NCBI GenBank assembly: GCA_903927965.1
Contig: CAIYPA010000091.1
Span: 1-53,928 of the forward strand
Direction of reading: 5' to 3'
DNA: 53,928 bases
Source: an uncultured Bacteroidia bacterium
Lineage (GTDB): Bacteria; Bacteroidota; Bacteroidia; Bacteroidales; Prolixibacteraceae
Positions 31,616 through 43,770 of the stretch are shown one piece after another; the first letter of the stretch is position 1; every line of letters starts with the position of its first letter. Position numbers and translations under genes: made by a program. The notes beneath the pieces are model-generated. The model saw only the letters and a list, made by a program, of their open reading frames with translations, searched no databases and had not been told where the DNA came from.

Positions 31616-31648
31616 TTTGTTATGAATCATTGGATTTGGATAATTTTG
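31616..31648 (+). promoter_or_regulatory. Bacteroidota-type promoter for cysC
   Basis: TTTG at 31616-31619 and TAATTTTG at 31641-31648 are separated by 21 bases and match the TTTG / TAnnTTTG consensus. Transcription would start near 31654, about 40 bases before the cysC ATG. Confidence 0.6.
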
Positions 31649-31692
31649 TGAATATTAATTTTAACTAATTTTTAAAGCATATTTTGCCATAA

Positions 31693-32343
31693 ATGTTAAA
31701 ACAGCACCTTCCCATTGTTACGAAATTAGACGAGGAACCTATAACAAAAGGTAAACAGTTGTTGGCCAGAGAATCTTTCCTGGTAAGTCGTCAGGATAAG
31801 GAAAAACTGAACGGACACCAAGCTTTTGTGCTCTGGTTCACAGGCCTTTCCGGATCTGGAAAATCGACCATTGCCCGAATGCTCGAAAAACGGTTGTTTG
31901 ATACCGGAATAAGAACTGCCATTCTTGATGGAGACAACACCCGCATGACGATCAACCATGACCTCGATTTTTCAAGCGCCGGACGTCATGAAAACATCAG
32001 AAGGGTAGCAGAAATGGCAAAACTGCTTAACGATGCAGGTGTGGTTGTGATCACGTCGTTTATTTCCCCCTTCGAAAACGACAGGGAAATGGCGCGAAAG
32101 ATCATTGGAAGTGATTGTTTTAAGGAGATATTTATTGACGCGACTCTCGAAATTTGTATTGAGCGCGATACCAAAGGGTTATATAAAAAGGCGTTAAACG
32201 GGGAGATCCCTGATTTTACCGGGATTAGCAGTCCATATGAACGGCCACAAAAACCAAATCTTATTCTATCCACCTCAAATGATCTGCCGGAAGAATCTGT
32301 CACTCAGATATTCGAATGGCTATCAAAATCAAGTTTGTTTTAG
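31693..32343 (+). CDS. cysC: Adenylyl-sulfate (APS) kinase
   Basis: 216-residue enzyme that phosphorylates APS with ATP to give PAPS, the sulfate donor of sulfotransferases. The P-loop is GLSGSGKST at 51-59; DGDNTR, the GRHENIRR region, TSFISPFENDRE and the KGLYKKALNGEIPDFTGI segment are all typical. It has about 35 residues before the core, more than E. coli CysC. No ATP sulfurylase genes (cysD/cysN) or reductive sulfur genes are adjacent. The only visible consumer of PAPS in the window is the sulfotransferase of the lasso locus 5 kb downstream. Confidence 0.93.
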   Translation: MLKQHLPIVTKLDEEPITKGKQLLARESFLVSRQDKEKLNGHQAFVLWFTGLSGSGKSTIARMLEKRLFDTGIRTAILDGDNTRMTINHDLDFSSAGRHENIRRVAEMAKLLNDAGVVVITSFISPFENDREMARKIIGSDCFKEIFIDATLEICIERDTKGLYKKALNGEIPDFTGISSPYERPQKPNLILSTSNDLPEESVTQIFEWLSKSSLF

Positions 32344-32361
32344 TGCTCCCTATCATTCAAT

Positions 32362-33123
32362 TTATAACCCGACCTTTTCAAAGACACGATAATTTGTCTG
32401 TTCATTGGCTATCTTTTGATTGTATATATTGTAAAGTGGCCGTTTTCTCAACACCTGGTTTTGCTCAAAACCTACTGGCTGATAATAAATCGAACAGGAA
32501 GTATCAGTAAAGCTGAAATCGGCATGGTCGATAACAAACAGCCCACCAACCTTAAGTTTTTGATCCAAAACCTTGATTTCAGATTCAAATTGTTCAAATG
32601 TATGGCCCTTGACTATCCGGTTGTCACTGCTTGTCCTGTTCTCGGTCCGCTGAAAAACTGCCATACAAAAAATGGCGTCAAAATCCGTCATAATCTCAAA
32701 AGTCCTTGATTTACGGTTTAAAAATGTAAAGTTTGGATTTCGGCTCAACTTTTTGCATTGCCTGACACACCAGGAATTGATGTCCACACCAATAATCCTG
32801 GTATGTGGAAAATATTCCCCCAAAGTAAAAACTTCTTCACCTGTTGAACATCCAAATGAGAGTATCTTGGGGTCTTTGCGATTGCGAGCCGCAAAAAATT
32901 CGGTGCATTTTTGGAAAACCAATGGATAACGGTTTTTTAAAGTAAAAGTAGCCCGCTGATGCAGGTTGTCGCGGGAAAACAAACCTGCAAGTGTTTCGGA
33001 CCTCATTCTCCCATTGGTGCCAAGCTGAAAAACAAACCAAACAAACTTTAATATCTTGAATAATAACAAGATAAAGATATTTTTGGAATTTCCGATTCGT
33101 TTAATTCTATCTTTCAGGTTCAT
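32362..33123 (-). CDS. Class I SAM-dependent methyltransferase
   Basis: 253 residues from the ATG at 33123. The SAM-binding motif is ILSFGCSTGEEVFTLGEYFP, followed by IIGVDIN and FDAIFCMAVFQRTENR; GCSTGEE recalls CheR-like enzymes, but the CheR N-terminal domain is absent. An N-terminal hydrophobic segment (NIFILLLFKILKFVWFVFQL) may anchor it to the membrane. It is divergent from the lasso precursor gene, with 135 bp between starts, and converges on cysC. Whether it modifies the lasso peptide is unknown. A -7-like box (TATTTTTG, 33130-33137) lies right before the ATG. Confidence 0.78.
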   Translation of the reverse strand: MNLKDRIKRIGNSKNIFILLLFKILKFVWFVFQLGTNGRMRSETLAGLFSRDNLHQRATFTLKNRYPLVFQKCTEFFAARNRKDPKILSFGCSTGEEVFTLGEYFPHTRIIGVDINSWCVRQCKKLSRNPNFTFLNRKSRTFEIMTDFDAIFCMAVFQRTENRTSSDNRIVKGHTFEQFESEIKVLDQKLKVGGLFVIDHADFSFTDTSCSIYYQPVGFEQNQVLRKRPLYNIYNQKIANEQTNYRVFEKVGL

Positions 33124-33213
33124 ATGGTGCAAAAATAAAATAAAAGTAATATCCTGCATTCCAATAAAAATAAAAAAATATTTTTGTGAGAATGGATCTA
33201 AAAAATATATTTA

Positions 33214-33221
33214 TACATTTG
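33214..33221 (+). promoter_or_regulatory. -7 box (TACATTTG) of the lasso precursor
   Basis: TACATTTG matches TAnnTTTG and is 38 bases before the precursor ATG, giving a short leader. The nearest TTTG (33183-33186) is 27 bases away, too far for the consensus, so the site may need an activator. Confidence 0.45.
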
Positions 33222-33258
33222 TGGTAGTTAAACTCATTTGAAACTAAAAAACAGTGCC

Positions 33259-33384
33259 ATGGAAAACAAAACCCCCAAAGCTATCTGGCAAAAACCGGAA
33301 ATTATTGATTTGGATATGAATGCAACAAATGGAGTTGGTGGAGCTGCGCCAGAAACACCCGAAAGCGGTCCCCCGGTATCATAA
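33259..33384 (+). CDS. Lasso peptide precursor 1 (intact)
   Basis: 41-residue precursor peptide. The leader (1-24) contains IWQKPEIIDLD, which fits the YxxPxL motif bound by lasso B1 proteins with Trp replacing Tyr. Thr is at -2 (…NATN). The predicted core is GVGGAAPETPESGPPVS: Gly1 would form an isopeptide bond with Glu8 (8-residue ring), leaving a 9-residue tail. The last residue is Ser, the site phosphorylated by HPr-kinase-like enzymes in paeninodin-type clusters. The tail has no bulky plug residue. A hairpin follows at 33394 and the biosynthetic genes lie downstream on the same strand. It was recognised by its leader motif, its Thr(-2), its core pattern and the neighbouring cyclases. Confidence 0.85.
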   Translation: MENKTPKAIWQKPEIIDLDMNATNGVGGAAPETPESGPPVS

Positions 33385-33393
33385 GATCAGTAA

Positions 33394-33433
33394 TTCCCCT
33401 TTTTAGGGATTTTAGTACCTTAAAAAAGGGAAA
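33394..33433 (+). terminator. Imperfect hairpin after precursor 1
   Basis: The arms ttccc-c-ttttt (33394-33404) and aaaaagggaa (33423-33432) pair with one bulge, ten bases after the precursor stop. In lasso operons a weak hairpin here commonly makes precursor mRNA more abundant than enzyme mRNA. Confidence 0.5.
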
Positions 33434-34261
33434 ATTTCTGCAACATTGATGCGGTGACATTAGATTATTCAGGTTTTCAAGTCAACCAAAACGATTTTTT
33501 AATGGTGAGGCATCGTGTTGTATGCGTATGTGGCAATAGATGGTGTAGAATTTATTATGGTTTCAAATCTCCAATGTGATCTTTTGTAAGGTTAATTGGA
33601 GATTTGATTTCTTTTTGAATTAACACCTCGTTTTTCGGTCATAACTGTTACTTCAATTGTGATGGGAAAGAATTTATAATAGGTCGAATATGCCGATCGG
33701 GAGCTTTTTCTATGGTTGTTCGAAACTGTCCACTACAAAGTTTGTTTAATTAGCGACCTTAATCGAACCAATAAGGAGTTTCAATAACCGAATTTTTAAT
33801 AACCCGATTAAACACGAGTTAAACTTAGGACGGAGCCCTTTAAAAATTAAACTGTCCAACCTTGATCTGAAACGGCACAGATTATGGATAGATTAATTTT
33901 GTCTTCTGATTTAAAATTTGGTTACTGGAAAACTGAAATTTTACCATCTCATTATCTTCACAACACACAACAATGATCTATTTTGTTTAATAGATTGAAA
34001 GGTATTGAACAATATCACACAAACAAAAACCAAATTTATTATGACCTTAATAAAAGTAATACCTTACTCCCCCAATCAATTTAGGCGAATTTTAAAACAG
34101 ATCTCTCAATTACCTGGTTTAGGATATTCTTATCCCCAGGATCAATTATTGACACTAACGAGCTACATGGAAGGAGATGCAATCGGCACCGATAGTTAGA
34201 AATGCCTTGATCTTGCGAGTGTTACAAGGATTTTATCCAGCGAATTGGCCACCGGCAGATC
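33434..34261 (+). other. Gene-poor stretch between precursor 1 and cyclase 1
   Basis: About 830 bases with no convincing gene. The longest open frames are ATG-started peptides of 25 residues (33502-33579 region) and 52 residues (34041-34199, MTLIKVIPYSPNQF…), neither recognisable. A strong terminator lies at 33563-33616. At the right edge begins a fragment of a lasso B2 gene. By comparison with the second, complete unit, the kinase, sulfotransferase, B1 and most of B2 would have stood here, so this is probably a deletion scar with eroded remains; no other remnant could be identified by eye. Confidence 0.5.
33563..33616 (+). terminator. Rho-independent terminator in the lasso gap
   Basis: A perfect 13-bp stem (tcaaatctccaat 33563-33575, attggagatttga 33595-33607) is followed by tttcttttt. 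It is stronger than the hairpin after precursor 1 and would stop most transcripts before cyclase 1. Confidence 0.75.
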
Positions 34262-34339
34262 AGATCTTGGGTAAAATAAGGCGAATATATTATCACGCCA
34301 AAAGGAAACAATTTATTTAGGGAAATCTTTAGTATCTGA
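34262..34339 (+). pseudogene. C-terminal remnant of a lasso B2 protease gene
   Basis: Read in frame to the TGA at 34337-34339, this stretch gives WVK-stop-GEYIITPKGNNLFREIFSI. The intact B2 gene at 38661 ends WVKSGEVFVTPRGDSNFKEIFSI. Twelve of the 19 residues from GE to the shared end are identical, and the DNA is similar through the start of the following cyclase (tgaac…ATGAG in both places). A TAA replaces the Ser codon and the frame breaks just upstream. It shows that a second B2 gene once preceded cyclase 1. Confidence 0.8.
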
Positions 34340-34344
34340 ACTTT

Positions 34345-36162
34345 ATGAGCTATTTGTTTGGGATCATCGATTTTAGTGGAACCAAAATTATGGAGGATGA
34401 GCTTAATAAACTTGATCTGGCAGTAAAAGGAGCGGATTTTGTATCGCATATGGAATTGTCTGAAAAATATGCCATTGGATATAGTCATAACCCTGGAAGG
34501 ATTCCAAATTGTGCCATTTACAAACACAAACACTTGGTTTTACTGGCAGACCTGCGAATCTATAATACAGACTTACTAAAAACCTACTTCGAATTCGGCA
34601 ATCAGTGCGAAGCATTTGCCAAAGCTTTTCTGAAATGGGGGGTGCAATGCCCCAAATATATCAATGGGGATTTTGCGGTTGTTGTGATTGACCTGCAAAC
34701 CAATGAAGCTCACCTGATCCGTGACCATATCGGAGCAAGGCCATTGGTATATTACCAAAAGGATGGCCGTTTGATTTTTTCATCACATGAATACGGCATT
34801 GCTAAAATGGGATTGTTCAGGCCTAAATTATCTGAAGACAAACTACTAAGAAGGCTTTTTAGGTTTAAATCAAAGTATTCACAAACAGCATTTGAACATA
34901 TTTTAAAACACACCCCTGGTCATGTGTTAACTTTTACGCAATCAGGCATCTTAGATTCTGTTTTTTGGAAGCCGGAAAAAATTGCAACCAATTATAGGAT
35001 TTCGTTTGAAGAGGCTGCCTCTCAATTACGCCAACTGATTATCCGTGCAACAGTTGCCCGAATTGAGACAGGAAAGACTGGCGTGCATGTAAGTGGTGGG
35101 CTGGATTCTACAGGAATTGCCTGTATTTTAGCTGATTGTATCGCTGATAGAAATAGGTTGATCGGATATTCATGGACACCTGAAGAATTGAACGATGCAG
35201 GTGATGACCAAAATGAGAAAGAGTTTATCGATAATTTTTCAACGGACAAAGGAGTTAAAGTGCGTTACCTGACCGTATCCAGTAGTGAATTTATAAAGGA
35301 TATGGTCGATCCCGAATTTGAGATCATGCAAATCGAATGCCCTACGATGCGAATGGCAGGTGAAGATCAGGTTACCACATTGTTCAGCGGCTGGGGAGGT
35401 GACGAGTTTTTATCCCTCAGCCTCAGAGGCGTTTTTAACCATTTCTTTTTCAATTTAAAATTCCGTTGGCTTTATAAATTCGTTCGAAAATATGGGATAA
35501 GATCAACGATTTACTTTGCAAAGAATGAGGTTTTACCATTATTCGTTCCATTTGGATTGCTTCCAACATACCGGCCAACTGACTGGATTATTCTTAAATT
35601 GCTGAAAACGTCCTTCATCTTAAAACATTGGAAGTTGATTTTTTTTCACCACAATGAACATGTTTTCGGATATGGAAGTCGCAAAAAACTAATAATTAAG
35701 CAACTAAAGTTGTATCATCTTCCTGCAAGAATGGATTCCTGGGCCTATCATTCCGAAAAATTTGGATTTGAATACAAATACCCATTGCTTGATAAAGATG
35801 TTCTCGAATATTGGTTTAGCCTACCTGTTAATTTTACATTTGAAAAACTGATCACAAGAGGGCTTTACCGTGAAATAATGAGAGGTATCCTTCCTGAACC
35901 GATCAGAACTAGAGAAGATAAAAGCGAAACATTGAGGGTAAAATATTTGGTGCAAAACATGACGAATGGGAAAGAATATCTCGAAAAACTTTTTGAAGCC
36001 ATTCCTGACCAAGACCATCTCCCTTTTTTCAAGACAAAGGCCTATCGGAAATTGTTTGAAAGTTCATTTCCAAAAAAACGCCGTAAAAAGTGGTTTTTTA
36101 TGGAAAGACTCTACATTTACATACGAAATGTGGAATTGGCTAAAAAATACATTGGCAAATGA
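34345..36162 (+). CDS. Lasso peptide cyclase 1 (asparagine synthetase-like)
   Basis: 605-residue asparagine-synthetase homologue of the lasso C type. It adenylates the side-chain carboxylate of the ring acceptor (here Glu8) and joins it to the N-terminal amine of the core. The N-terminal half resembles the glutaminase domain (DFAVVVIDLQTNEAHLIRDHIGARPL) but lacks the Cys nucleophile at position 2, as expected for cyclases that do not use glutamine. The PP-loop SGGLDS is at 250-255, and FSGWGGDEFLSLS lies further on. It has the same length as, and is strongly similar to, the second cyclase at 39074. A B2 fragment precedes it and an exporter fragment overlaps its stop, so it is the surviving enzyme of a degraded unit. 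Confidence 0.9.
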   Translation: MSYLFGIIDFSGTKIMEDELNKLDLAVKGADFVSHMELSEKYAIGYSHNPGRIPNCAIYKHKHLVLLADLRIYNTDLLKTYFEFGNQCEAFAKAFLKWGVQCPKYINGDFAVVVIDLQTNEAHLIRDHIGARPLVYYQKDGRLIFSSHEYGIAKMGLFRPKLSEDKLLRRLFRFKSKYSQTAFEHILKHTPGHVLTFTQSGILDSVFWKPEKIATNYRISFEEAASQLRQLIIRATVARIETGKTGVHVSGGLDSTGIACILADCIADRNRLIGYSWTPEELNDAGDDQNEKEFIDNFSTDKGVKVRYLTVSSSEFIKDMVDPEFEIMQIECPTMRMAGEDQVTTLFSGWGGDEFLSLSLRGVFNHFFFNLKFRWLYKFVRKYGIRSTIYFAKNEVLPLFVPFGLLPTYRPTDWIILKLLKTSFILKHWKLIFFHHNEHVFGYGSRKKLIIKQLKLYHLPARMDSWAYHSEKFGFEYKYPLLDKDVLEYWFSLPVNFTFEKLITRGLYREIMRGILPEPIRTREDKSETLRVKYLVQNMTNGKEYLEKLFEAIPDQDHLPFFKTKAYRKLFESSFPKKRRKKWFFMERLYIYIRNVELAKKYIGK

Positions 36163-36299
36163 AAAAAAGAGAGTACAGTTCATGTAAAAGAAAATTGCAG
36201 CAACTGAAATGTGCCAATTACGAAAATGGCCGCATAGTAATAAATAATATCTTAATTTTCACTTTAAATAGTATCCTATTAATGAAACCAGCTCGATAA
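36159..36299 (+). pseudogene. N-terminal remnant of a lasso ABC exporter gene
   Basis: The ATG at 36159 overlaps the cyclase 1 stop as ATGA, just as the intact exporter gene at 40888 overlaps cyclase 2. The 46-residue peptide begins MKKREY and contains NGRIVINNILIFTLNSILLM. This aligns with the intact exporter's MKKERI start and SGRAIAITNLILKVLQSAMP. A TAA at 36297-36299 ends it; the same frame continues open to about 36459 with hydrophobic codons (KPMILIIIISFVLITVNII), possibly further decayed exporter sequence. No ATPase part remains. Confidence 0.65.
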
Positions 36300-36477
36300 A
36301 CTAAATTGCAATTCAACCTGATGAGTTTCGGGAAAAGTATGAGCAGCTTATCTACGACATTGACACATTGGACTATAATAAAAATAAATATTTTATTCAA
36401 ACCAATGATTTTGATAATAATTATTAGTTTTGTTCTGATAACAGTCAATATAATTTGAATATTTTATAGCAAAAATT

Positions 36478-36621
36478 ATGGAAAACACGACAACAAAAGC
36501 AACCTAGCAAAAGCCCGAAATGATCGATCTGGACATTGAACTTACTGATAAACTAAAGTTTACATTGCCTGATGAAAGCCTTACTATGTTAGGTCCATCT
36601 GCATCTTTGTATGAACTTTAA
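36478..36621 (+). pseudogene. Lasso precursor 2, interrupted by TAG
   Basis: The frame reads MENTTTKAT-stop-QKPEMIDLDIELTD and on to YEL before a TAA at 36619-36621. It aligns with precursor 1 (MENKTPKAIWQKPEIIDLDMNATN). The TAG at 36505-36507 stands where precursor 1 has TGG, i.e. at the leader Trp expected to bind B1. The Thr at -2 is kept. The core would start KLKFTLPDESL, with Lys at position 1 and Asp at 8, in register with Pro7-Glu8 of core 1. Restart at the ATG at 36520 would make a peptide without the B1 motif. A terminator follows, as in unit 1. Confidence 0.75.
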
Positions 36622-36642
36622 GTTTGGTAAAGTTATCTCCGG

Positions 36643-36668
36643 TCCCTCATAATTGGAGGGATTTTTTT
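36643..36668 (+). terminator. Terminator after precursor 2
   Basis: A 6-bp stem (tccctc 36643-36648, gaggga 36656-36661) is followed by seven T residues. It is a partial terminator between precursor and enzyme genes, the same layout as in unit 1. Confidence 0.7.
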
Positions 36669-36710
36669 AAAATTTGAATATTCATATTCTTATAAATCTA
36701 AAAGTGCCAA

Positions 36711-37541
36711 ATGGTTATTGATTTTCCGGTCTCAAATGTAGCAATCAAATACAGTCAACCTTTTTCAAAGCTTGATAACCCAGTTTTGGATTATCCGCGT
36801 TTTCAGGTAAAGGAAAACGAATTTTTCATGGAGGTTGACCGGATTGCACGGTATCTGGTTCGGAATGGAAATGAAATATTCATTGACCAGCACGACGAGG
36901 CTGACCGTGCCTCTGTTTACCTGTTTCTTGCAGGTTCGGCTTTTGGAGTCTTGCTTCACCAGCGATGTATGCTGCCCCTTCACGGCAGTTCCTTTGTTTT
37001 CAATGGGAAGGGAGTCGTCATATGTGGGGCAAGTGGGGCAGGAAAATCATCGGTGGTCGCTTCTTTCTGCCTGAATGGGGGTATTTTTATCAATGACGAC
37101 ATTACCCCCCTAAATATCACGGATAGCCAAACGACAATTGTTCCCATAAGTACAAGGATAAAATTATGGGACGACACCCTCGAAAAGTTAAACATAACGA
37201 ACACCGATCTGGAAAAAATCAGGCCTACAATAGAAAAGTTTTACCTGCCGGTAAGCGATTCTTGTATTGAGGAAAAACGGTTCGATCAACTTTATATTCT
37301 TGCTACACACAATAAAGAGGAGTTTATCGTAAAAGAACTGGGTGGTGTTGAAAAATACAATGCGATCCGGTATCAAATCTACCGGAAGATGTACCTCAAA
37401 GGAATGCCTGAAACTGAGAAAACCTATTTCAGGCAACTTTTAAAATTGTCAACTCAAATCACTGTCAAACAAATAGTTAGGCCGAATATATGTGATGTTC
37501 GTGATACAATGGCATTTATCAGAAAAGAGATTGGTGAATGA
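36711..37541 (+). CDS. HPr-kinase-like lasso peptide kinase
   Basis: 276-residue homologue of the C-terminal domain of HPr kinase. The P-loop is CGASGAGKSSV (~103-113), preceded by LPLHGSSFVFNGKGVV, and the acidic motif INDDITPL follows. In paeninodin-type lasso clusters such kinases phosphorylate the C-terminal Ser of the precursor peptide. Precursor 1 ends in Ser, so that role fits here; activity is inferred. The gene starts 89 bp after precursor 2 and overlaps the sulfotransferase gene by 4 bp (ATGA). Confidence 0.85.
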   Translation: MVIDFPVSNVAIKYSQPFSKLDNPVLDYPRFQVKENEFFMEVDRIARYLVRNGNEIFIDQHDEADRASVYLFLAGSAFGVLLHQRCMLPLHGSSFVFNGKGVVICGASGAGKSSVVASFCLNGGIFINDDITPLNITDSQTTIVPISTRIKLWDDTLEKLNITNTDLEKIRPTIEKFYLPVSDSCIEEKRFDQLYILATHNKEEFIVKELGGVEKYNAIRYQIYRKMYLKGMPETEKTYFRQLLKLSTQITVKQIVRPNICDVRDTMAFIRKEIGE

Positions 37542-38389
37542 AAAATTTTGTCTGGTTGGTTTCCTATCCAAAATCGGGAAATACCTGGTTTCGTATATTT
37601 TTATCCAATTATTTGAATAACAGTGAATTACCTGCCACTCTTGAAGGGATTGAATCAACTCCGATTGCTGGCAATGCGATACTGTTTGAGGAGCTGACCG
37701 GTTTAAACCCATTTGAATTAACCCCGGAGGAGGTTGACGTTTATCGTCCGGAAATCTATACATTTGCTTCAAGGGAGATTGAAGGTGTAAGTTACCGCAA
37801 AACCCATGATGCCTATACCATGAACACCAATGGTGAACCACTATTTCCGGCTGAAGTTTCCAAAGGTGCTGTCTATTTTATCCGTAATCCATTGGATGTC
37901 TGTGTCTCCTACGCAAATCATGGAGCGAGCCAGATAGAAAAAACAATCAAATTATTGCTGAACGAAAAAGGGTTAATTGCCGGAAAGAGGAACGGGCAGT
38001 TGCGGCAAATGTTGTTGTCGTGGAAAGGCCATGTGGAGAGTTGGCAAAACCAAACTTCAATTCCAATCCATTTCGTGAGGTATGAAGATATGAAACTTAA
38101 ACCAATTGAGGCGTTTGGATCAGCCATCCGGTTTTTAGGATTGGAATATGATGAAGAACGGTTGGTCAGGGCAATAGGGCACAGCGATTTCAAATTGCTT
38201 CAAAAAATGGAAGAAGAGACTGGTTTTCAGGAGCGGTTGCAAAAATGCAAATCTTTTTTTTGGAAAGGTGAAATAGGTAATTATCGGAATTATTTATCAG
38301 ATAATGATATAGAACGAATTGTAGATTATAGTTCGGATATTATGAAAAAATTTGGATATCTTAGTGCCGACAACAAACTTGAAATTTAA
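37538..38389 (+). CDS. PAPS-dependent sulfotransferase in the lasso locus
   Basis: 283-residue Sulfotransfer_1-type enzyme. The 5'-phosphosulfate loop is SYPKSGNTWFR (~9-19), the 3'-phosphate motif is FIRNPLDVCVSYANH (~113-127) and the C-terminal FFWKGEIGNYRNYL matches the usual GxxGxW-like PAPS loop. It would transfer sulfate to a hydroxyl. Core 1 offers Thr9, Ser12 and Ser17. It is translationally coupled to the kinase and 6 bp before B1, so a lasso peptide is the most likely acceptor, although polysaccharide or lipid cannot be excluded. Confidence 0.88.
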   Translation: MKNFVWLVSYPKSGNTWFRIFLSNYLNNSELPATLEGIESTPIAGNAILFEELTGLNPFELTPEEVDVYRPEIYTFASREIEGVSYRKTHDAYTMNTNGEPLFPAEVSKGAVYFIRNPLDVCVSYANHGASQIEKTIKLLLNEKGLIAGKRNGQLRQMLLSWKGHVESWQNQTSIPIHFVRYEDMKLKPIEAFGSAIRFLGLEYDEERLVRAIGHSDFKLLQKMEEETGFQERLQKCKSFFWKGEIGNYRNYLSDNDIERIVDYSSDIMKKFGYLSADNKLEI

Positions 38390-38395
38390 TAAAGA

Positions 38396-38659
38396 ATGGA
38401 AAAATATTACAAGAACAATGAAATACTCGATGGCAACCTTGAGGGAAGCCTGGTGATGATGGACATCCAGAAGGGGAAATATTTTAGTTTGAACCCCGTT
38501 GGGAAAAGGATCTGGGAGATGATTGAACAGCCTAAAAGTTTTGATGAAATTATCAATCTGCTTCAGGCTGAATTCGAAGTGACCCCTGAACAATGCAGTT
38601 CAGAAGTTATTGAGTTTTTGGCAAAGATGGAGAAGTCGGGAATCGTAAAAAAAGGATAA
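38396..38659 (+). CDS. Lasso B1 leader-binding protein (PqqD/RRE)
   Basis: 87-residue PqqD-fold protein: LEGSLVMMDIQKGKYFSLNP (about 14-33), VGKRIWEMIEQPKSFDEII and EFLAKMEKSGIVKKG. It recognises the precursor leader (the YxxPxL motif, here WQKPEI) and delivers it to the B2 protease. The adjacent split B2 gene, 1 bp away, confirms the role. Confidence 0.9.
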   Translation: MEKYYKNNEILDGNLEGSLVMMDIQKGKYFSLNPVGKRIWEMIEQPKSFDEIINLLQAEFEVTPEQCSSEVIEFLAKMEKSGIVKKG

Positions 38660-38660
38660 A

Positions 38661-39068
38661 TTGATCACCAAGTTTTTATCGCTTCCGATCAATGAAAAGC
38701 TGTTGCTCATTGAAGCAATTGTCCTTCTTTTTATCTCAAAAATAATTGTCTGCTTTCCATTCAGGCACTACGTTAAATTACTCCGTCCGGTTGGGAATCC
38801 GCACACAGAACCGGATTTAGTCCTTCTTTTCAATATCGGTAGATCCCTTCAAAGGGCCAATAAGCTTGCTTTTTGGAAGAACATCTGTCTTGTAAAATCG
38901 GTTGCTGCCCGTTTTATGCTTTCAAGAAGGAGAATACCCTCGGTTTTTACGCTTGGCCTGTTTTTCCACGATGAAATGAAATTTGGGGCACACGCCTGGG
39001 TAAAATCGGGTGAAGTCTTTGTCACACCAAGAGGGGACAGCAACTTTAAAGAAATTTTTTCAATCTGA
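38661..39068 (+). CDS. Lasso B2 leader peptidase (transglutaminase-like)
   Basis: 135-residue cysteine protease that removes the leader from the lasso precursor. The catalytic Cys is in FWKNICLVKSVAARFML, the His in GAHAWVKSGE and the Asp in TPRGDSNF. No ATG fits; translation probably starts at the TTG at 38661, coupled to the B1 stop. A decayed copy of its 3' end lies before cyclase 1 (34262-34339). Confidence 0.9.
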   Translation: MITKFLSLPINEKLLLIEAIVLLFISKIIVCFPFRHYVKLLRPVGNPHTEPDLVLLFNIGRSLQRANKLAFWKNICLVKSVAARFMLSRRRIPSVFTLGLFFHDEMKFGAHAWVKSGEVFVTPRGDSNFKEIFSI

Positions 39069-39073
39069 ACCCG

Positions 39074-40891
39074 ATGAGTACCATTTTTGTCATTTTTTAT
39101 TTTGCCGGGGAAAAAATAAAAGAAGAAGATTTTCAACTACTTGCCGGGGCGGTTAAGGGGGAATATTTTGTTTCACAGGCTGAAACAGGGGATCACTACG
39201 CTTTGGGATTCAACTACTTACCAGATAAGAGTTCCAGAGGCTCTATTTTACACCATCAGGACCTTGTTTTATTGGCCGACCTTCGTGTCTATAATCTTGA
39301 TAAGCTTAAGACTCATTTTGATTTCGCAAACGAATATGAGGCATTTGCCAAAGCCTTTTTAAAATGGGGAATCAGTTGTGCAGATTATATTAGCGGTGAA
39401 TTTGCAGTCGTGATCGTTGACCAGAAAAACAATGAAGCGCATCTGATTCGTGACCATATTGGTGCCAGGCCATTGACCTATTGTTATTTGGCAAAACACC
39501 TTATTTTTTCGTCGCATGAATATAGGATTGCAAAATCGGGTCTTTTTCCTACCCGATTATCTGAGTCCCAACTAATAAAGCGTTTTTTTAGGATCAAATC
39601 AACTTATTCGCAAACCGAATATGAACAGATTTTCAAAGTTACACCAGGTCATGTGGTAACGATCTCCCGGAATGGAGTAAGAGATACGGCTTATTGGCAT
39701 CCTGAAAAAATAAAAACAAATAAAAGTATCATTTTCAGCGAAGCTGCAGATCATTTGCGCCAACTTTTGATCAGTGCAACTTTGGCACGACTTGAACCCG
39801 GAAAGACGGGCGTTCATGTAAGCGGAGGACTTGATTCAACAGGAATTGCCTGTATTTTAGCTGATTATATTGATGATAAAAATAGGCTCATTGGATATTC
39901 GTGGACTCCTGAGGAATTGAACGATGCTGGGGATGACAAAAATGAAAAAGATTTTATAGACGAATTTTCGGATGAAAAGGGGGTAATGGTCCGGTATCTA
40001 ACCCTTGATAAAAGTGATTTTGCCAGGGATGCTGTGGAACCTGAATTTGAGATCATGCACATGGAGTATCCCACAATACGGATGGCTGGAAAGGATGGGG
40101 TAACCACTCTTTTCAGTGGTTGGGGTGGTGATGAATTCCTGTCATTGAGCACACTGGGTTCATTCAACCATTTCGTTTTCAGTTTTAAACCGGTTTGGCT
40201 CTTAAACTATGTACGAAAATGTGGCATCAGATCGACCATTTATGCAATACGGTCAGAAATACTCCCGTTACTTGTTCCATTTGGGCTGCTCCCTTCCTTC
40301 AGGGGAATGGAATGGTCCAATCTCAGGTTTTTCAAAACTTCATTTATTAAAAAGCATTGGAAAATAATCTTTTTCCATAACCGCAAAAATATTTATGGTT
40401 TTGGAGGCCGGAAGGGGTTTATTTTCAATTTATTAAATAATTACCATATCCCTACCCGGATGGATACCTGGAGCCATTATGCCGAAAAATACGGTTTTGA
40501 ATATAAATATCCACTTCTTGACAAAGAGGTACTCGAGTATTGGTTTAGTTTGCCAGTCAGGTTTACTCACGAAAATCTCGATTCACGGTTACTTTACCGC
40601 GAAGTAATGAAAGGGATCCTGACCGAATCGATCCGGACCCGTAGGGATAAAAGCGAAACACTCAGGATAAAGTATTCTCAACAAAAAATGGTTGAAGGAA
40701 AGGAATACCTCGAATCACTTTTTTATGCTATTCCAGAGAAGGAACATCTTCCCTATTTTGATCTGAAAGCTTATCAGAAATTGTTTGATAATGAGCTTCC
40801 CAAGGAGGGTTTAACTACCTGGTTTCAATTCGAATTGCGGTGTTCTTACCTGCGCAATGTTGAACTGGTTAAAAAATACATTGCCAGATGA
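39074..40891 (+). CDS. Lasso peptide cyclase 2 (asparagine synthetase-like)
   Basis: 605-residue paralogue of cyclase 1, similar along its whole length (e.g. GKTGVHVSGGLDSTGIACIL is shared). Again it has no Cys at position 2 and an intact PP-loop SGGLDS near 250. It lies 5 bp after B2 and overlaps the exporter by 4 bp. Its original partner was probably precursor 2, now interrupted. It may now serve precursor 1, either alongside cyclase 1 or instead of it. Identity is not uniform: the first ~60 residues and the region 160-220 differ most, which may reflect different substrate cores. Confidence 0.9.
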   Translation: MSTIFVIFYFAGEKIKEEDFQLLAGAVKGEYFVSQAETGDHYALGFNYLPDKSSRGSILHHQDLVLLADLRVYNLDKLKTHFDFANEYEAFAKAFLKWGISCADYISGEFAVVIVDQKNNEAHLIRDHIGARPLTYCYLAKHLIFSSHEYRIAKSGLFPTRLSESQLIKRFFRIKSTYSQTEYEQIFKVTPGHVVTISRNGVRDTAYWHPEKIKTNKSIIFSEAADHLRQLLISATLARLEPGKTGVHVSGGLDSTGIACILADYIDDKNRLIGYSWTPEELNDAGDDKNEKDFIDEFSDEKGVMVRYLTLDKSDFARDAVEPEFEIMHMEYPTIRMAGKDGVTTLFSGWGGDEFLSLSTLGSFNHFVFSFKPVWLLNYVRKCGIRSTIYAIRSEILPLLVPFGLLPSFRGMEWSNLRFFKTSFIKKHWKIIFFHNRKNIYGFGGRKGFIFNLLNNYHIPTRMDTWSHYAEKYGFEYKYPLLDKEVLEYWFSLPVRFTHENLDSRLLYREVMKGILTESIRTRRDKSETLRIKYSQQKMVEGKEYLESLFYAIPEKEHLPYFDLKAYQKLFDNELPKEGLTTWFQFELRCSYLRNVELVKKYIAR

Positions 40892-42666
40892 TGAAAAAAG
40901 AGCGGATATTTCAGGTCAATGATTTTGGGAAGATCGTTGCATGCATCTGGAAGTCGGGGCGTGCAATTGCAATTACGAACCTTATCCTGAAAGTCCTGCA
41001 ATCGGCTATGCCTATTTCCATCTTATTTATTACCAAGGAATTGGTCGATCTTATTTCAATAAAGGACTCCATTGGGCAACATACAGTTGTAGAACTGATC
41101 GTTTTTTTGCTGGTCATCCAATTGGTCAACAGCGTCGTTAATAATCTGTCCAATTTTCTTTCAGGAATTCAACAGCAGTTGGTCACTGACCATTTGTCGA
41201 AGGAAGTCATTAAAAAAGCGATCGAAGTCGAGTTGGAATATTACGAAAATCCGGAATATCACAATACTTTGCATTTAGCTCAGCATCAGGCAATTTACAA
41301 GGCACCAATTGTTGTAAATACGATTAGCCAATTGATCGAGTCAACGATTTCGATATTCCTGCTTTCAGCCCTTTTCTTTTCTTTGGATTGGGTATATGCT
41401 GTTTCATTGATTGTAATTGCAATTCCCATTCTTATCATTCGGTGGTACAATGGGAAATCGACCTACCAATTGGAAAAAAAGAGTGCAGAACTTGAAAGGC
41501 AATCGGGATATCTGAATTTGGTATTGACAACTGAAGTAAATGCCAAGGAGGTCCGTGCTTTTGGTTTTGGACCCTTCTTCCTAAAGCGGTTTATTGCTTT
41601 AAGGTCACTTCTGTTCCATGAAAAAAAGGAATTGAACAAGAAACAGACATGGGCTAGCTTAATTGCACAAGTGATCGAGATTGTTGTAATTTGCCTGATG
41701 TACTTTCGTTTGGCGATTCAAGCAATAGGAGGGATCATTTCGATCGGAGGATTTGTCCTGTATTTTTCGGCCTTCCAACGATTGCAAAGTGCATTAAAAA
41801 CCTGGTTACAAACCTTGGTGCAACTCTATCAATCCCAACTTTTTCTCAGCGATATATTCTCTTTTCTTGATCTGCCTTCAAAACAACGTTGGACTTCATT
41901 ATCAAAAGATGCCACAATTATGGAATGGAACCTTCTTGATGTTTCAAATGTTGTTTTTACCTATCCAAATTCGGAAAAGCCTGTACTTCAGGAGATTAAT
42001 TTCTCCTGTAAATCTGGCAACATCATTGCATTTGTGGGCGAAAATGGTTCTGGTAAATCGACACTGGCAAAGTTGCTTTGCCGGTTATATCCTACGGGTA
42101 CAGGGGAAATATTAATCGGAAAGAAAAGTATTCAGGATATTCCTGAAGAAGAATTTCGGAAAAATGTATCTGTTGTTTTTCAGGATTTTGGGAAGTATTA
42201 TACCAGTATAAACGAAAATATCAGGTTGGGCTTTGGCAATGAGGTGGATGAAACCAAAATTGTTCAAAGTGCGACAAGTGCGGGAGCCCACGAATTTATC
42301 GTTAGTAAGCCCTTGGGATACAATACAGTACTTGGCCGCTCATTTATAAATAGCGAAGAGTTGAGTGGTGGGCAATGGCAAAAACTGGCAATTGCTAGGG
42401 CATTTTACCGCCTACCCAAAGTATTGATACTTGATGAGCCTACAAGCCATATTGATCCGGTTGCTGAATATGAACTGTTTAAAGAGATAAAGGAGAAGTT
42501 CAACGAAAAAATAGTGATCCTCATTACACACAGACTGCATAACCTTAAAATTGCCGATCACATATATGTGATGCACGAAGGCCGTATTGTGGAAAATGGG
42601 ACATTTGCTGAACTTGTAGGAATGAACGGGACATTTAAAGAAATGTACGATAAACAACAACTTTAA
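40888..42666 (+). CDS. ABC exporter of the lasso peptide
   Basis: 592-residue fused permease-ATPase of the type used for lasso export and self-immunity (McjD-like). A six-helix membrane domain (~1-320) is followed by the ATPase: Walker A VGENGSGKSTL, Q-loop VVFQDFGKYY, signature LSGGQWQKLAIARAF, Walker B VLILDEPTSH and the H-loop VILITHRLHN. It has no N-terminal C39 peptidase domain, in line with leader removal by B2. The start overlaps cyclase 2 (ATGATG at 40888). A truncated copy follows cyclase 1. Confidence 0.92.
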   Translation: MMKKERIFQVNDFGKIVACIWKSGRAIAITNLILKVLQSAMPISILFITKELVDLISIKDSIGQHTVVELIVFLLVIQLVNSVVNNLSNFLSGIQQQLVTDHLSKEVIKKAIEVELEYYENPEYHNTLHLAQHQAIYKAPIVVNTISQLIESTISIFLLSALFFSLDWVYAVSLIVIAIPILIIRWYNGKSTYQLEKKSAELERQSGYLNLVLTTEVNAKEVRAFGFGPFFLKRFIALRSLLFHEKKELNKKQTWASLIAQVIEIVVICLMYFRLAIQAIGGIISIGGFVLYFSAFQRLQSALKTWLQTLVQLYQSQLFLSDIFSFLDLPSKQRWTSLSKDATIMEWNLLDVSNVVFTYPNSEKPVLQEINFSCKSGNIIAFVGENGSGKSTLAKLLCRLYPTGTGEILIGKKSIQDIPEEEFRKNVSVVFQDFGKYYTSINENIRLGFGNEVDETKIVQSATSAGAHEFIVSKPLGYNTVLGRSFINSEELSGGQWQKLAIARAFYRLPKVLILDEPTSHIDPVAEYELFKEIKEKFNEKIVILITHRLHNLKIADHIYVMHEGRIVENGTFAELVGMNGTFKEMYDKQQL

Positions 42667-42667
42667 C

Positions 42668-43705
42668 ATGAAAACGGAACTTACACCGGAACTACTGTAT
42701 AAAAGGCACGGACTTAGCTATCCTCAGATCGACAGTCTTTTAGGCTCCAATCATAAAGATTTATATCAGAGGGACATAATGGAAAATTTTAAGATCATCC
42801 GTGAATTTATCATGGTAACAGACGAATTTCGGAAAATGGACATCCGGTTTATCTCCTTAAAAGGGCCACTCTTGTCGCATCGGATCTACAACGATGTCAC
42901 CGTCAGAAGGTTCCATGACCTTGATATACTGGTCGATTTTAGCGATATTTCGTTAATCTACAATCTTCTGGTTCAGCGTGGATATTCGAAAGATACGGAG
43001 TTGTTAGCGGATGAAAATATGAATCAAAAGCTGCACGACTATTTAAAGCATATTTCCTTTTTTCATCCTCATACAAAAGTGTGCTTTGAAATCCACTGGA
43101 AAATTTCCATAGATAAATGTATTTTTAATTTGGATTTTGATTCGATCTATAAGCAGATTGCTACAGATCAGGTATTTATGAGCCGGAATTTCCGCGTTTT
43201 GAACAAGGAATATGATTTGCTATATCTGCTTGTTCATGGATCTGACCACAAATGGCAAAGACTAAAATGGTTACTCGATATTAAGGATTATAGCAGGAAT
43301 GTCCCTTTTGATCGGTTAAAAGTGGATAATTTGGCCAAAAAACACAAGGTTTCCAGGATAATCCCATTGTACAATTTGGTCGCCTCCAAATACTTCCACG
43401 ACCCCCAATTGTTTGATACAAAACAAAAAGTTCCAGCCTTACTTTTTCGAAGTTGTATTAAGCAAATCGAAGCCCGTGAGGTGATATTTTATACTGAAAG
43501 GACTATTTCCGATTCATTCAGTGATTTTGTATATGCATTTCTGCTCTTCCCCGATTTACGTAGCAGATTGGCCTACCTTAAAAATAAGCTGATATGCTAC
43601 TACGATGTAAAGAATATTAAAACCACAAATGCCATATTATTAATACTTTACCGTCCGTTTGGATTAATATTCAGAAATTTCCACGGTGTCCGTAAAGAAA
43701 AATAA
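42668..43705 (+). CDS. Nucleotidyltransferase-fold protein (NTP_transf_5-like)
   Basis: 345-residue protein with the pattern of the NTP_transf_5 family: FISLKGPLLSHRIYNDVTVRRFHDLDILVD (acidic pair DLDILVD as metal ligands), then HPHTKVCFEIHWKIS and DYDLL-like LLYLLVHGSDHKWQRLKWLLDI. It starts 1 bp after the exporter and closes the operon. Homologues occur in other lasso and RiPP clusters beside kinases and sulfotransferases, with no settled role; transfer of a nucleotide or a nucleotide-activated group to the peptide is possible. Confidence 0.85.
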   Translation: MKTELTPELLYKRHGLSYPQIDSLLGSNHKDLYQRDIMENFKIIREFIMVTDEFRKMDIRFISLKGPLLSHRIYNDVTVRRFHDLDILVDFSDISLIYNLLVQRGYSKDTELLADENMNQKLHDYLKHISFFHPHTKVCFEIHWKISIDKCIFNLDFDSIYKQIATDQVFMSRNFRVLNKEYDLLYLLVHGSDHKWQRLKWLLDIKDYSRNVPFDRLKVDNLAKKHKVSRIIPLYNLVASKYFHDPQLFDTKQKVPALLFRSCIKQIEAREVIFYTERTISDSFSDFVYAFLLFPDLRSRLAYLKNKLICYYDVKNIKTTNAILLILYRPFGLIFRNFHGVRKEK

Positions 43706-43725
43706 ATATGGGTATTAATAGAAGA

Positions 43726-43770
43726 TCCCTCAATTTGATCCGGAATAAAGAACTATATCAAATTGAAGGA
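43726..43770. terminator. Bidirectional hairpin ending the lasso operon
   Basis: The arms tccctcaatttgat (43726-43739) and atcaaattgaagga (43757-43770) pair with one mismatch over 14 bases around a 17-base loop. It lies between the converging nucleotidyltransferase and M28 peptidase genes and marks the end of the lasso locus. Confidence 0.55.

Follow-up and report, generated by a model that had tools for sequence, protein, structure and literature searches.

A lasso-peptide gene cluster in an uncultured Prolixibacteraceae bacterium carries a kinase-sulfotransferase pair that recurs in lasso loci of many phyla

We analyzed a 53,928-nucleotide stretch of DNA (the window; contig CAIYPA010000091.1, positions 1 to 53,928, assembly GCA_903927965.1) from an uncultured Bacteroidia bacterium of the family Prolixibacteraceae, in which a lasso-peptide cluster occupies positions 31693-43705. 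An earlier note on this DNA, made from its letters alone, had described a complete set of lasso genes with three candidate tailoring enzymes in a Bacteroidota host at 31616-43770. Every gene that it named is present and open, and the assignment to a Bacteroidota host is supported. The cluster contains one intact precursor (A1), the leader-binding protein B1, the leader peptidase B2, two cyclases (C1 and C2), an ATP-binding cassette (ABC) exporter (D), an HPrK-like kinase (K), a sulfotransferase (ST) and an NTP_transf_5 protein (N). All lasso genes lie on the + strand, down to the end of N at 43705. Three elements were missing from the earlier gene list: an adenosine 5′-phosphosulfate (APS) kinase gene, cysC, decayed remnants of K, ST and B2, and a third precursor-cyclase pair on another contig.

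The intact precursor A1 (33259-33384) encodes the leader MENKTPKAIWQKPEIIDLDMNATN and the predicted core GVGGAAPETPESGPPVS, with a predicted ring between G1 and E8. It has the features expected of a lasso precursor: a WxxP-type leader motif, Thr at position −2 and an acid at core position 8, within the range of 7-9. The core ends in Ser (PPVS) and holds three hydroxyl residues, as had been claimed, and the A1 leader is similar to the leaders found in the nearest relatives (loci L040, L045 and L046) and in A3, the precursor of the third pair. A1 is followed by the remnants (33430-34336, in the order K-ST-B2, by tblastn) and by the intact cyclase C1 (34345-36162, 605 aa; Asn_synthase E = 7e-20). 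A second precursor, A2 (36478-36621), is broken by an in-frame stop at codon 10, read directly and placed inside the leader, and because of this stop we reject it as a functional precursor. Downstream of A2 lie K (36711-37541; Hpr_kinase_C E = 4.7e-5), ST (37538-38389; Sulfotransfer_1 E = 1.7e-21), B1 (38396-38659; PqqD E = 4.4e-21), B2 (38661-39068, TTG start), the intact cyclase C2 (39074-40891, 605 aa; Asn_synthase E = 1.4e-18), D (40888-42666; ABC_tran E = 2.9e-31) and N (42668-43705; NTP_transf_5 E = 6.2e-35, over the cut-off). The end of K overlaps the start of ST by 4 bases, as does the end of C2 the start of D.

K retains H91, K112, D129 and D130, the His-Lys-Asp-Asp residues given for paeninodin-type lasso kinases (PMC9266682; literature cited by PMC number was available to us as excerpts). 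These residues and the Ser-ending core support the earlier identification of K as a paeninodin-type HPrK-like kinase. ST is intact and scores 77.2 bits on Sulfotransfer_1, against a Pfam cut-off of 22. In an alignment of 24 lasso sulfotransferases its SYPKSGNTW, K88/H90 and R116/S124 are invariant; we take these to be the motifs for 3′-phosphoadenosine 5′-phosphosulfate (PAPS) and the catalytic His. Intactness, score and retained motifs bear out the call of a PAPS-dependent sulfotransferase. An AlphaFold2 model of ST has a mean predicted local distance difference test score of 92.7, and its closest solved relatives are TEG12/Teg14 by sequence (PDB) and SULT1B1 and Teg12 by fold. ST has the PAPS sulfotransferase fold and motifs in common with Teg12/Teg14/StaL and the SULT1 enzymes, but identity in the fold search is about 20%, and the substrates of those enzymes are phenols, small molecules or finished glycopeptides. 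Solely from its genomic linkage, we infer that ST sulfates a lasso precursor.

The core lasso enzymes are recognizable to different degrees. B1 is over the Pfam cut-off for PqqD and reaches 76.9 bits on NCBIfam lasso_PqqD_Bac, just below the cut-off of 80, while B2 passes the curated NCBIfam model lasso_biosyn_B2 (56.8 bits, cut-off 33) and has C76 and H111, which are invariant in 11 of 11 aligned sequences. C1 and C2 score 160.5 and 163.8 bits on the NCBIfam lasso cyclase model, far under its cut-off of 525, and lower still on the Asn-synthase model (138.1 and 132.2 bits). Both have Ser at residue 2 and retain SGGLDST; a glutamine-hydrolysing Asn synthetase encoded in this genome has Cys2 instead. 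In a cyclase tree, C1 and C2 group with support with cyclases of lasso loci (L040, L157, L030 and L034). The Cys2 Asn synthetase falls among the lasso cyclases on a long, unresolved branch, and the two classes are not cleanly separated. The earlier note had named placement of the cyclases in the Asn synthetase clade as an outcome that would speak against its claim; the tree does not go against the lasso assignment, though it separates the classes imperfectly.

The stretch between A1 and C1 records a former duplication. It contains pieces of K (33430-33519 and 33804-34112), ST (34112-34135 and 34162-34260) and B2 (34262-34336), with best tblastn E-values of 1.1e-4, 3.5e-4 and 4.8e-7, compared with 0.035, 0.011 and 0.004 for the best of 50 shuffles of each protein and at least 0.23 for a control stretch. 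The best B1 piece in the same interval was not significant (E = 0.079). As the remnants follow the gene order seen in the intact operon, the locus was formerly made up of two A-K-ST-(B1)-B2-C modules, and the ST remnant indicates that ST was once part of each. Module 1 retains A1 and C1, and module 2 retains everything except its precursor. C1 and C2 are 62% identical, and the proportion of nonsynonymous differences between them (pN, 0.23) relative to that of synonymous differences (pS, 0.75) indicates that both are kept under purifying constraint. In a relative, genome G058, two A-K-ST sets lie on two short contigs (L045/L046), perhaps an undecayed counterpart of the double module.

The third pair (L315:5981-8058) is on a separate contig, C209, and consists of A3 (core KDLGLVENGTSFS) and cyclase C3, which is 41-42% identical to C1 and C2. 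None of K, ST, B1 or B2 was found within the 13 kb fetched around it; its neighbours, named by eye, are a formyltransferase-like open reading frame (ORF) and three tail-collar-like ORFs. A search of the genome for a further lasso B2 gave no good candidate, the single extra match (21.7 bits) being below the cut-off and in a longer ORF. Since K, ST, B1 and B2 are decayed or absent at A1-C1 and A3-C3 and no other good B2 was found, a single K-ST-B1-B2 set probably serves several precursor-cyclase pairs. The A2 stop and the K, ST and B2 remnants could alternatively mark the whole cluster as a non-functional duplication relic in decay, whose precursor is broken and whose genes have collapsed. We regard this as very improbable, as one intact copy of each function is left, both cyclases are open and constrained, and A1 and the third precursor-cyclase pair are intact.

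K and ST form a recurrent pair in lasso loci of many phyla, a widespread class. When 84,980 species genomes were scanned with ST, more matches existed than the best 80, which are the ones examined here. The record titles of these 80 loci include Bacteroidales, Saprospiraceae, Chloroflexi, Acidobacteria, Armatimonadetes, Legionellaceae, Desulforapulum, a cyanobacterium (Petrachloros) and others; most are metagenome-assembled genomes (MAGs), in which single contigs may be misbinned. Within the fetched stretches K is present at 71 of the 80 loci and a cyclase at 54, and ST stands alone at 7. Among 119 distinct ST genes, 93 have K as the immediate upstream neighbour on the same strand, 5 have it as the immediate downstream neighbour, 4 have it at another position and 17 show no K in view (before removal of six duplicates, K is directly upstream at 98 of 125 places). 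Loci reached through B2 alone (n = 128) contain K in 76 cases and ST in 26, and K is present at all 26 ST loci; a starting tally of 132 loci (K, 80; ST, 30; both, 30) also counted the window and three loci that had been retrieved with ST. The window's order was sampled with 295 genomes, of which 29 contain an ST match, 35 a lasso B2 over the cut-off and 25 both. A lasso B2 is thus found in 25 of 29 genomes with ST versus 10 of 266 without, an association beyond chance. ST is rare in a wider Bacteroidota sample outside the order (1 of 34 B2 loci).

The loci fetched included 40 of 60 Pseudomonadota B2 places, 20 of the lower-ranked places from the phylum of an Acidobacteria MAG, and 34 regions of the Bacteroidota sample. 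A further 56 loci of about 3 kb each (L227-L282) are outside all tallies; ST occurs in L227, L252, L264 and L271, with K in view at L227. Of several ST matches with listed in-frame stops, the one examined (G254, L028) proved to be an ORF of 290 codons with the stop at the end of the match. We also observed variant arrangements. Two kinases flank one ST at L026 and L059 (= L150), and the L026 precursor is Tyr-rich and ends in Leu. Two to four ST-like genes stand in a row at L127, L148 and L152, where no lasso genes were found. In some same-order genomes (L027/L028, L035/L036, L063/L064 and L066/L067/L068), ST-B1 pairs are located apart from solitary B2 genes and no cyclase is in view; these are either dispersed lasso genes or another ribosomally synthesized and post-translationally modified peptide (RiPP). 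No ST relatives were found in viral contigs.

Several described systems resemble parts of this cluster. Those of paeninodin (PadeK) and ThcoK/SyanK have in common with it an HPrK-like kinase with the His-Lys-Asp-Asp residues, split B1/B2 and a Ser-ending precursor, but their products are described without a sulfotransferase, and they come from Firmicutes and Sphingobium, not Bacteroidales. The pseudomycoidin system (PsmK, PsmN) has, in the excerpts available, a kinase, an annotated nucleotidyltransferase and a Ser-ending core; it too is described without a sulfotransferase, and N is likened to PsmN by domain class. Sulfotransferase genes in lasso clusters have been noted before, with a role called unclear, by Letzel 2014 (PMC4289311) and, according to the review PMC8498205, by Zhu 2016. 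The Firmicutes and anaerobe clusters in these accounts resemble the window in having kinase and sulfotransferase genes. They are known there by gene content only, one account places the sulfotransferase at the cluster start whereas the window ST follows K, and the excerpts mention no PAPS enzyme, whereas the window has CysC. RaxST, which sulfates RaxX, is by its description a case of bacterial peptide sulfation with a dedicated PAPS supply, RaxP and RaxQ (PMC9484694, from excerpts), but RaxX is not a lasso peptide.

The statement that a sulfated lasso peptide is not well established stands in that none was found in the open-licence literature searched; it needs amending in that earlier publications had noted sulfotransferase genes within lasso clusters. 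In the excerpts available, a review of lasso modifications (PMC9266682) has no word beginning with "sulf", PMC13352647 (June 2026) has no "sulfo" and contains "sulfat" just in a single reference, which concerns a sulfatase, and a survey of Bacteroidales RiPPs (PMC10352776) has no "sulfotransferase". An ordinary paeninodin- or pseudomycoidin-type product is a reading to be weighed: K would phosphorylate, N would glycosylate, and ST would act on another compound or leave a Tyr-less core untouched. The chemistry of K and N is known (PMC9266682, PMC8498205), sulfation has no precedent in the excerpts of PMC9266682, PMC8498205 and PMC13352647, and the precursor adjoining the intact K-ST genes, A2, is broken. 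Against this reading, the link of ST with K and lasso genes is tight and spans many phyla, ST holds all residues invariant in lasso sulfotransferases, and module 1 once had its own ST. We consider an ordinary product unlikely, though a serious contender.

N had been described as an NTP_transf_5-like protein, and it does belong to the same Pfam class as the annotated nucleotidyltransferases of lasso clusters. As an enzyme adding a nucleotide it is less convincing: by analogy with pseudomycoidin PsmN, N more likely adds a sugar. Hexose transfer to phosphoserine is, in the excerpts of PMC8498205 and PMC9266682, known for PsmN only. If N puts a sugar on the phosphoserine, ST might sulfate that sugar, giving a sulfoglycosyl-phospho lasso peptide. 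The nesting of ST within the occurrence of K and the presence of N in the window cluster are consistent with this idea, which would account for the absence of ST where K is missing. However, among the 59 ST loci flanked by 7 kb or more on each side, 24 lack an N match (some of the 24, such as L122, L145 and L152, are not lasso loci), so that N is not generally needed; we reject N as an obligatory partner of ST and judge sulfation of a sugar improbable.

The sulfate donor could be supplied locally. CysC (31693-32343, +; APS_kinase E = 4.7e-62), which converts APS to PAPS, is the only APS kinase found in its own genome (assembly 98% complete, 4.4% contamination, 584 contigs). CysD and CysN are encoded on a second contig (L303) and CysH on a third (L304). 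CysH carries CC...CxxC motifs, which we take to be the mark of APS reductases, some of which also take PAPS. Together, the separate CysD/CysN and the paired-Cys motifs suggest that PAPS may be dispensable for assimilation. Elsewhere, fusions of ATP sulfurylase and APS kinase occur in or near lasso genes at L102, L106, L107 and L133, CysNC at the relatives L040 and L121, and CysC in or beside lasso genes at L119, L135 and L138. L102, L106 and L107 are Gammaproteobacterial/Legionellaceae lasso operons in which the fusion gene is set among the lasso genes. Between CysC and A1, a class I methyltransferase (32362-33159, −; Methyltransf_31 E = 2.9e-8) is encoded on the opposite strand; its profile matched ten ORFs at few fetched loci, and its membership of the cluster is uncertain.

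To identify candidate acceptor residues, we compared predicted cores from loci with K and ST (K+ST+) and with K alone (K+ST−). Cores that scored under 9, exceeded 26 residues or lay over 1.5 kb from a lasso gene were dropped before counting, and a predicted core was obtained at only 47 of 118 ST loci. A C-terminal Ser is found in 42 of 53 distinct K+ST+ cores versus 10 of 20 K+ST− cores (p = 0.02). Tail Tyr is found in 27 of 53 K+ST+ cores versus 0 of 20 K+ST− cores (Fisher p = 1.8e-5), in 23 of 42 versus 0 of 14 with a stricter score, and in 9 of 16 versus 0 of 9 within Bacteroidota. L033 and L071 are examples of loci whose precursor has Tyr. In the window's kinase clade (the window, L040, L045, L046 and L061), four of five cores lack Tyr, and all five end in Ser and have another Ser/Thr just after the ring acid. 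These residues favour S17 of A1 for phosphate and T9 or S12 for sulfate. We reject Tyr as a general acceptor: 26 of 53 K+ST+ cores, including that of the window, have no tail Tyr, and a phylogeny-aware test has no power. A further reading is that K and ST act as a two-step unit on one site, with phosphate as the required handle or acceptor, giving a C-terminal phospho-sulfo group, or, in a variant, with sulfate serving as the leaving group in a subsequent reaction. It would explain both that ST is never seen without K at B2 loci and that Tyr is dispensable, and such a group, if true, is not known on ribosomal peptides. We hold it to be the least probable of the readings considered.

The reading that we prefer, and think fairly probable, is that the cluster directs synthesis of a sulfated and phosphorylated lasso peptide. 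B1 would bind the leader of A1, and that of A3 in trans; K would phosphorylate the C-terminal Ser of the core; and ST would move sulfate from PAPS, made from APS by the neighbouring CysC, onto a second core hydroxyl, T9 or S12 here and Tyr in many relatives. B2 would cleave the leader after Thr-Asn, the cyclase would close the G1-E8 ring round the tail, N may add a hexose to the phosphate and D would export the finished product. K, ST, B1 and B2 of module 2 would thus serve both A1-C1 and A3-C3. For the A1 core the calculated monoisotopic masses are 1489.7048 as a lasso, 1569.6712 with phosphate, 1569.6617 with sulfate, 1649.6280 with both, 1731.7240 with phosphate and hexose, and 1811.6808 with all three groups; the phosphate and sulfate forms differ by 6 ppm, so that telling them apart calls for high resolution or for SO3 loss in negative mode. 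Both modifications, their sites, their order and the action in trans are what we infer from gene content and comparison.

A number of observations weigh against this proposal. The Hpr_kinase_C match of K is below the curated Pfam cut-off, and its matches to HprK-related NCBIfam models are below theirs too. A1 sits in the module whose own K and ST have decayed, so that action of the intact K and ST on it in trans is assumed, and its core has no Tyr. The Tyr contrast is confounded with descent: a tree of 68 kinases has just 6 changes of ST, and of the 3 supported independent pairs an average of 1.3 show Tyr going in the same direction and none in the opposite one, so that significance is unreachable. 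At four dispersed ST-B1 sites (L028, L036, L067 and L068), K and B2 are absent from the fetched stretch, the rest of those genomes not having been searched for K. A second sulfotransferase match on contig C579 suggests that PAPS may have other users in the cell. CysC occurs within the fetched stretch at 12 of 112 distinct ST loci versus 3 of 102 loci lacking ST (p = 0.03; 12 of 118 and p = 0.057 with duplicates kept), a weak difference with most loci lacking it, and we reject the idea that CysC generally marks ST loci.

The doubly modified product proposed earlier is plausible and now better supported, by the K-ST pairing over many phyla and by the PAPS supply; it has the standing of a well-founded prediction rather than of a result. 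Far from being a local oddity, the K-ST pair recurs across lasso loci of many bacterial groups, which makes a lasso peptide with both sulfate and phosphate a concrete and testable prediction in terms of masses, acceptor residues and the order of steps. If true, sulfation would add a new step to the tailoring of lasso peptides, and a processing set shared by several precursor-cyclase pairs would mean that the leader-guided enzymes are shared while the cyclases stay with their own cores.

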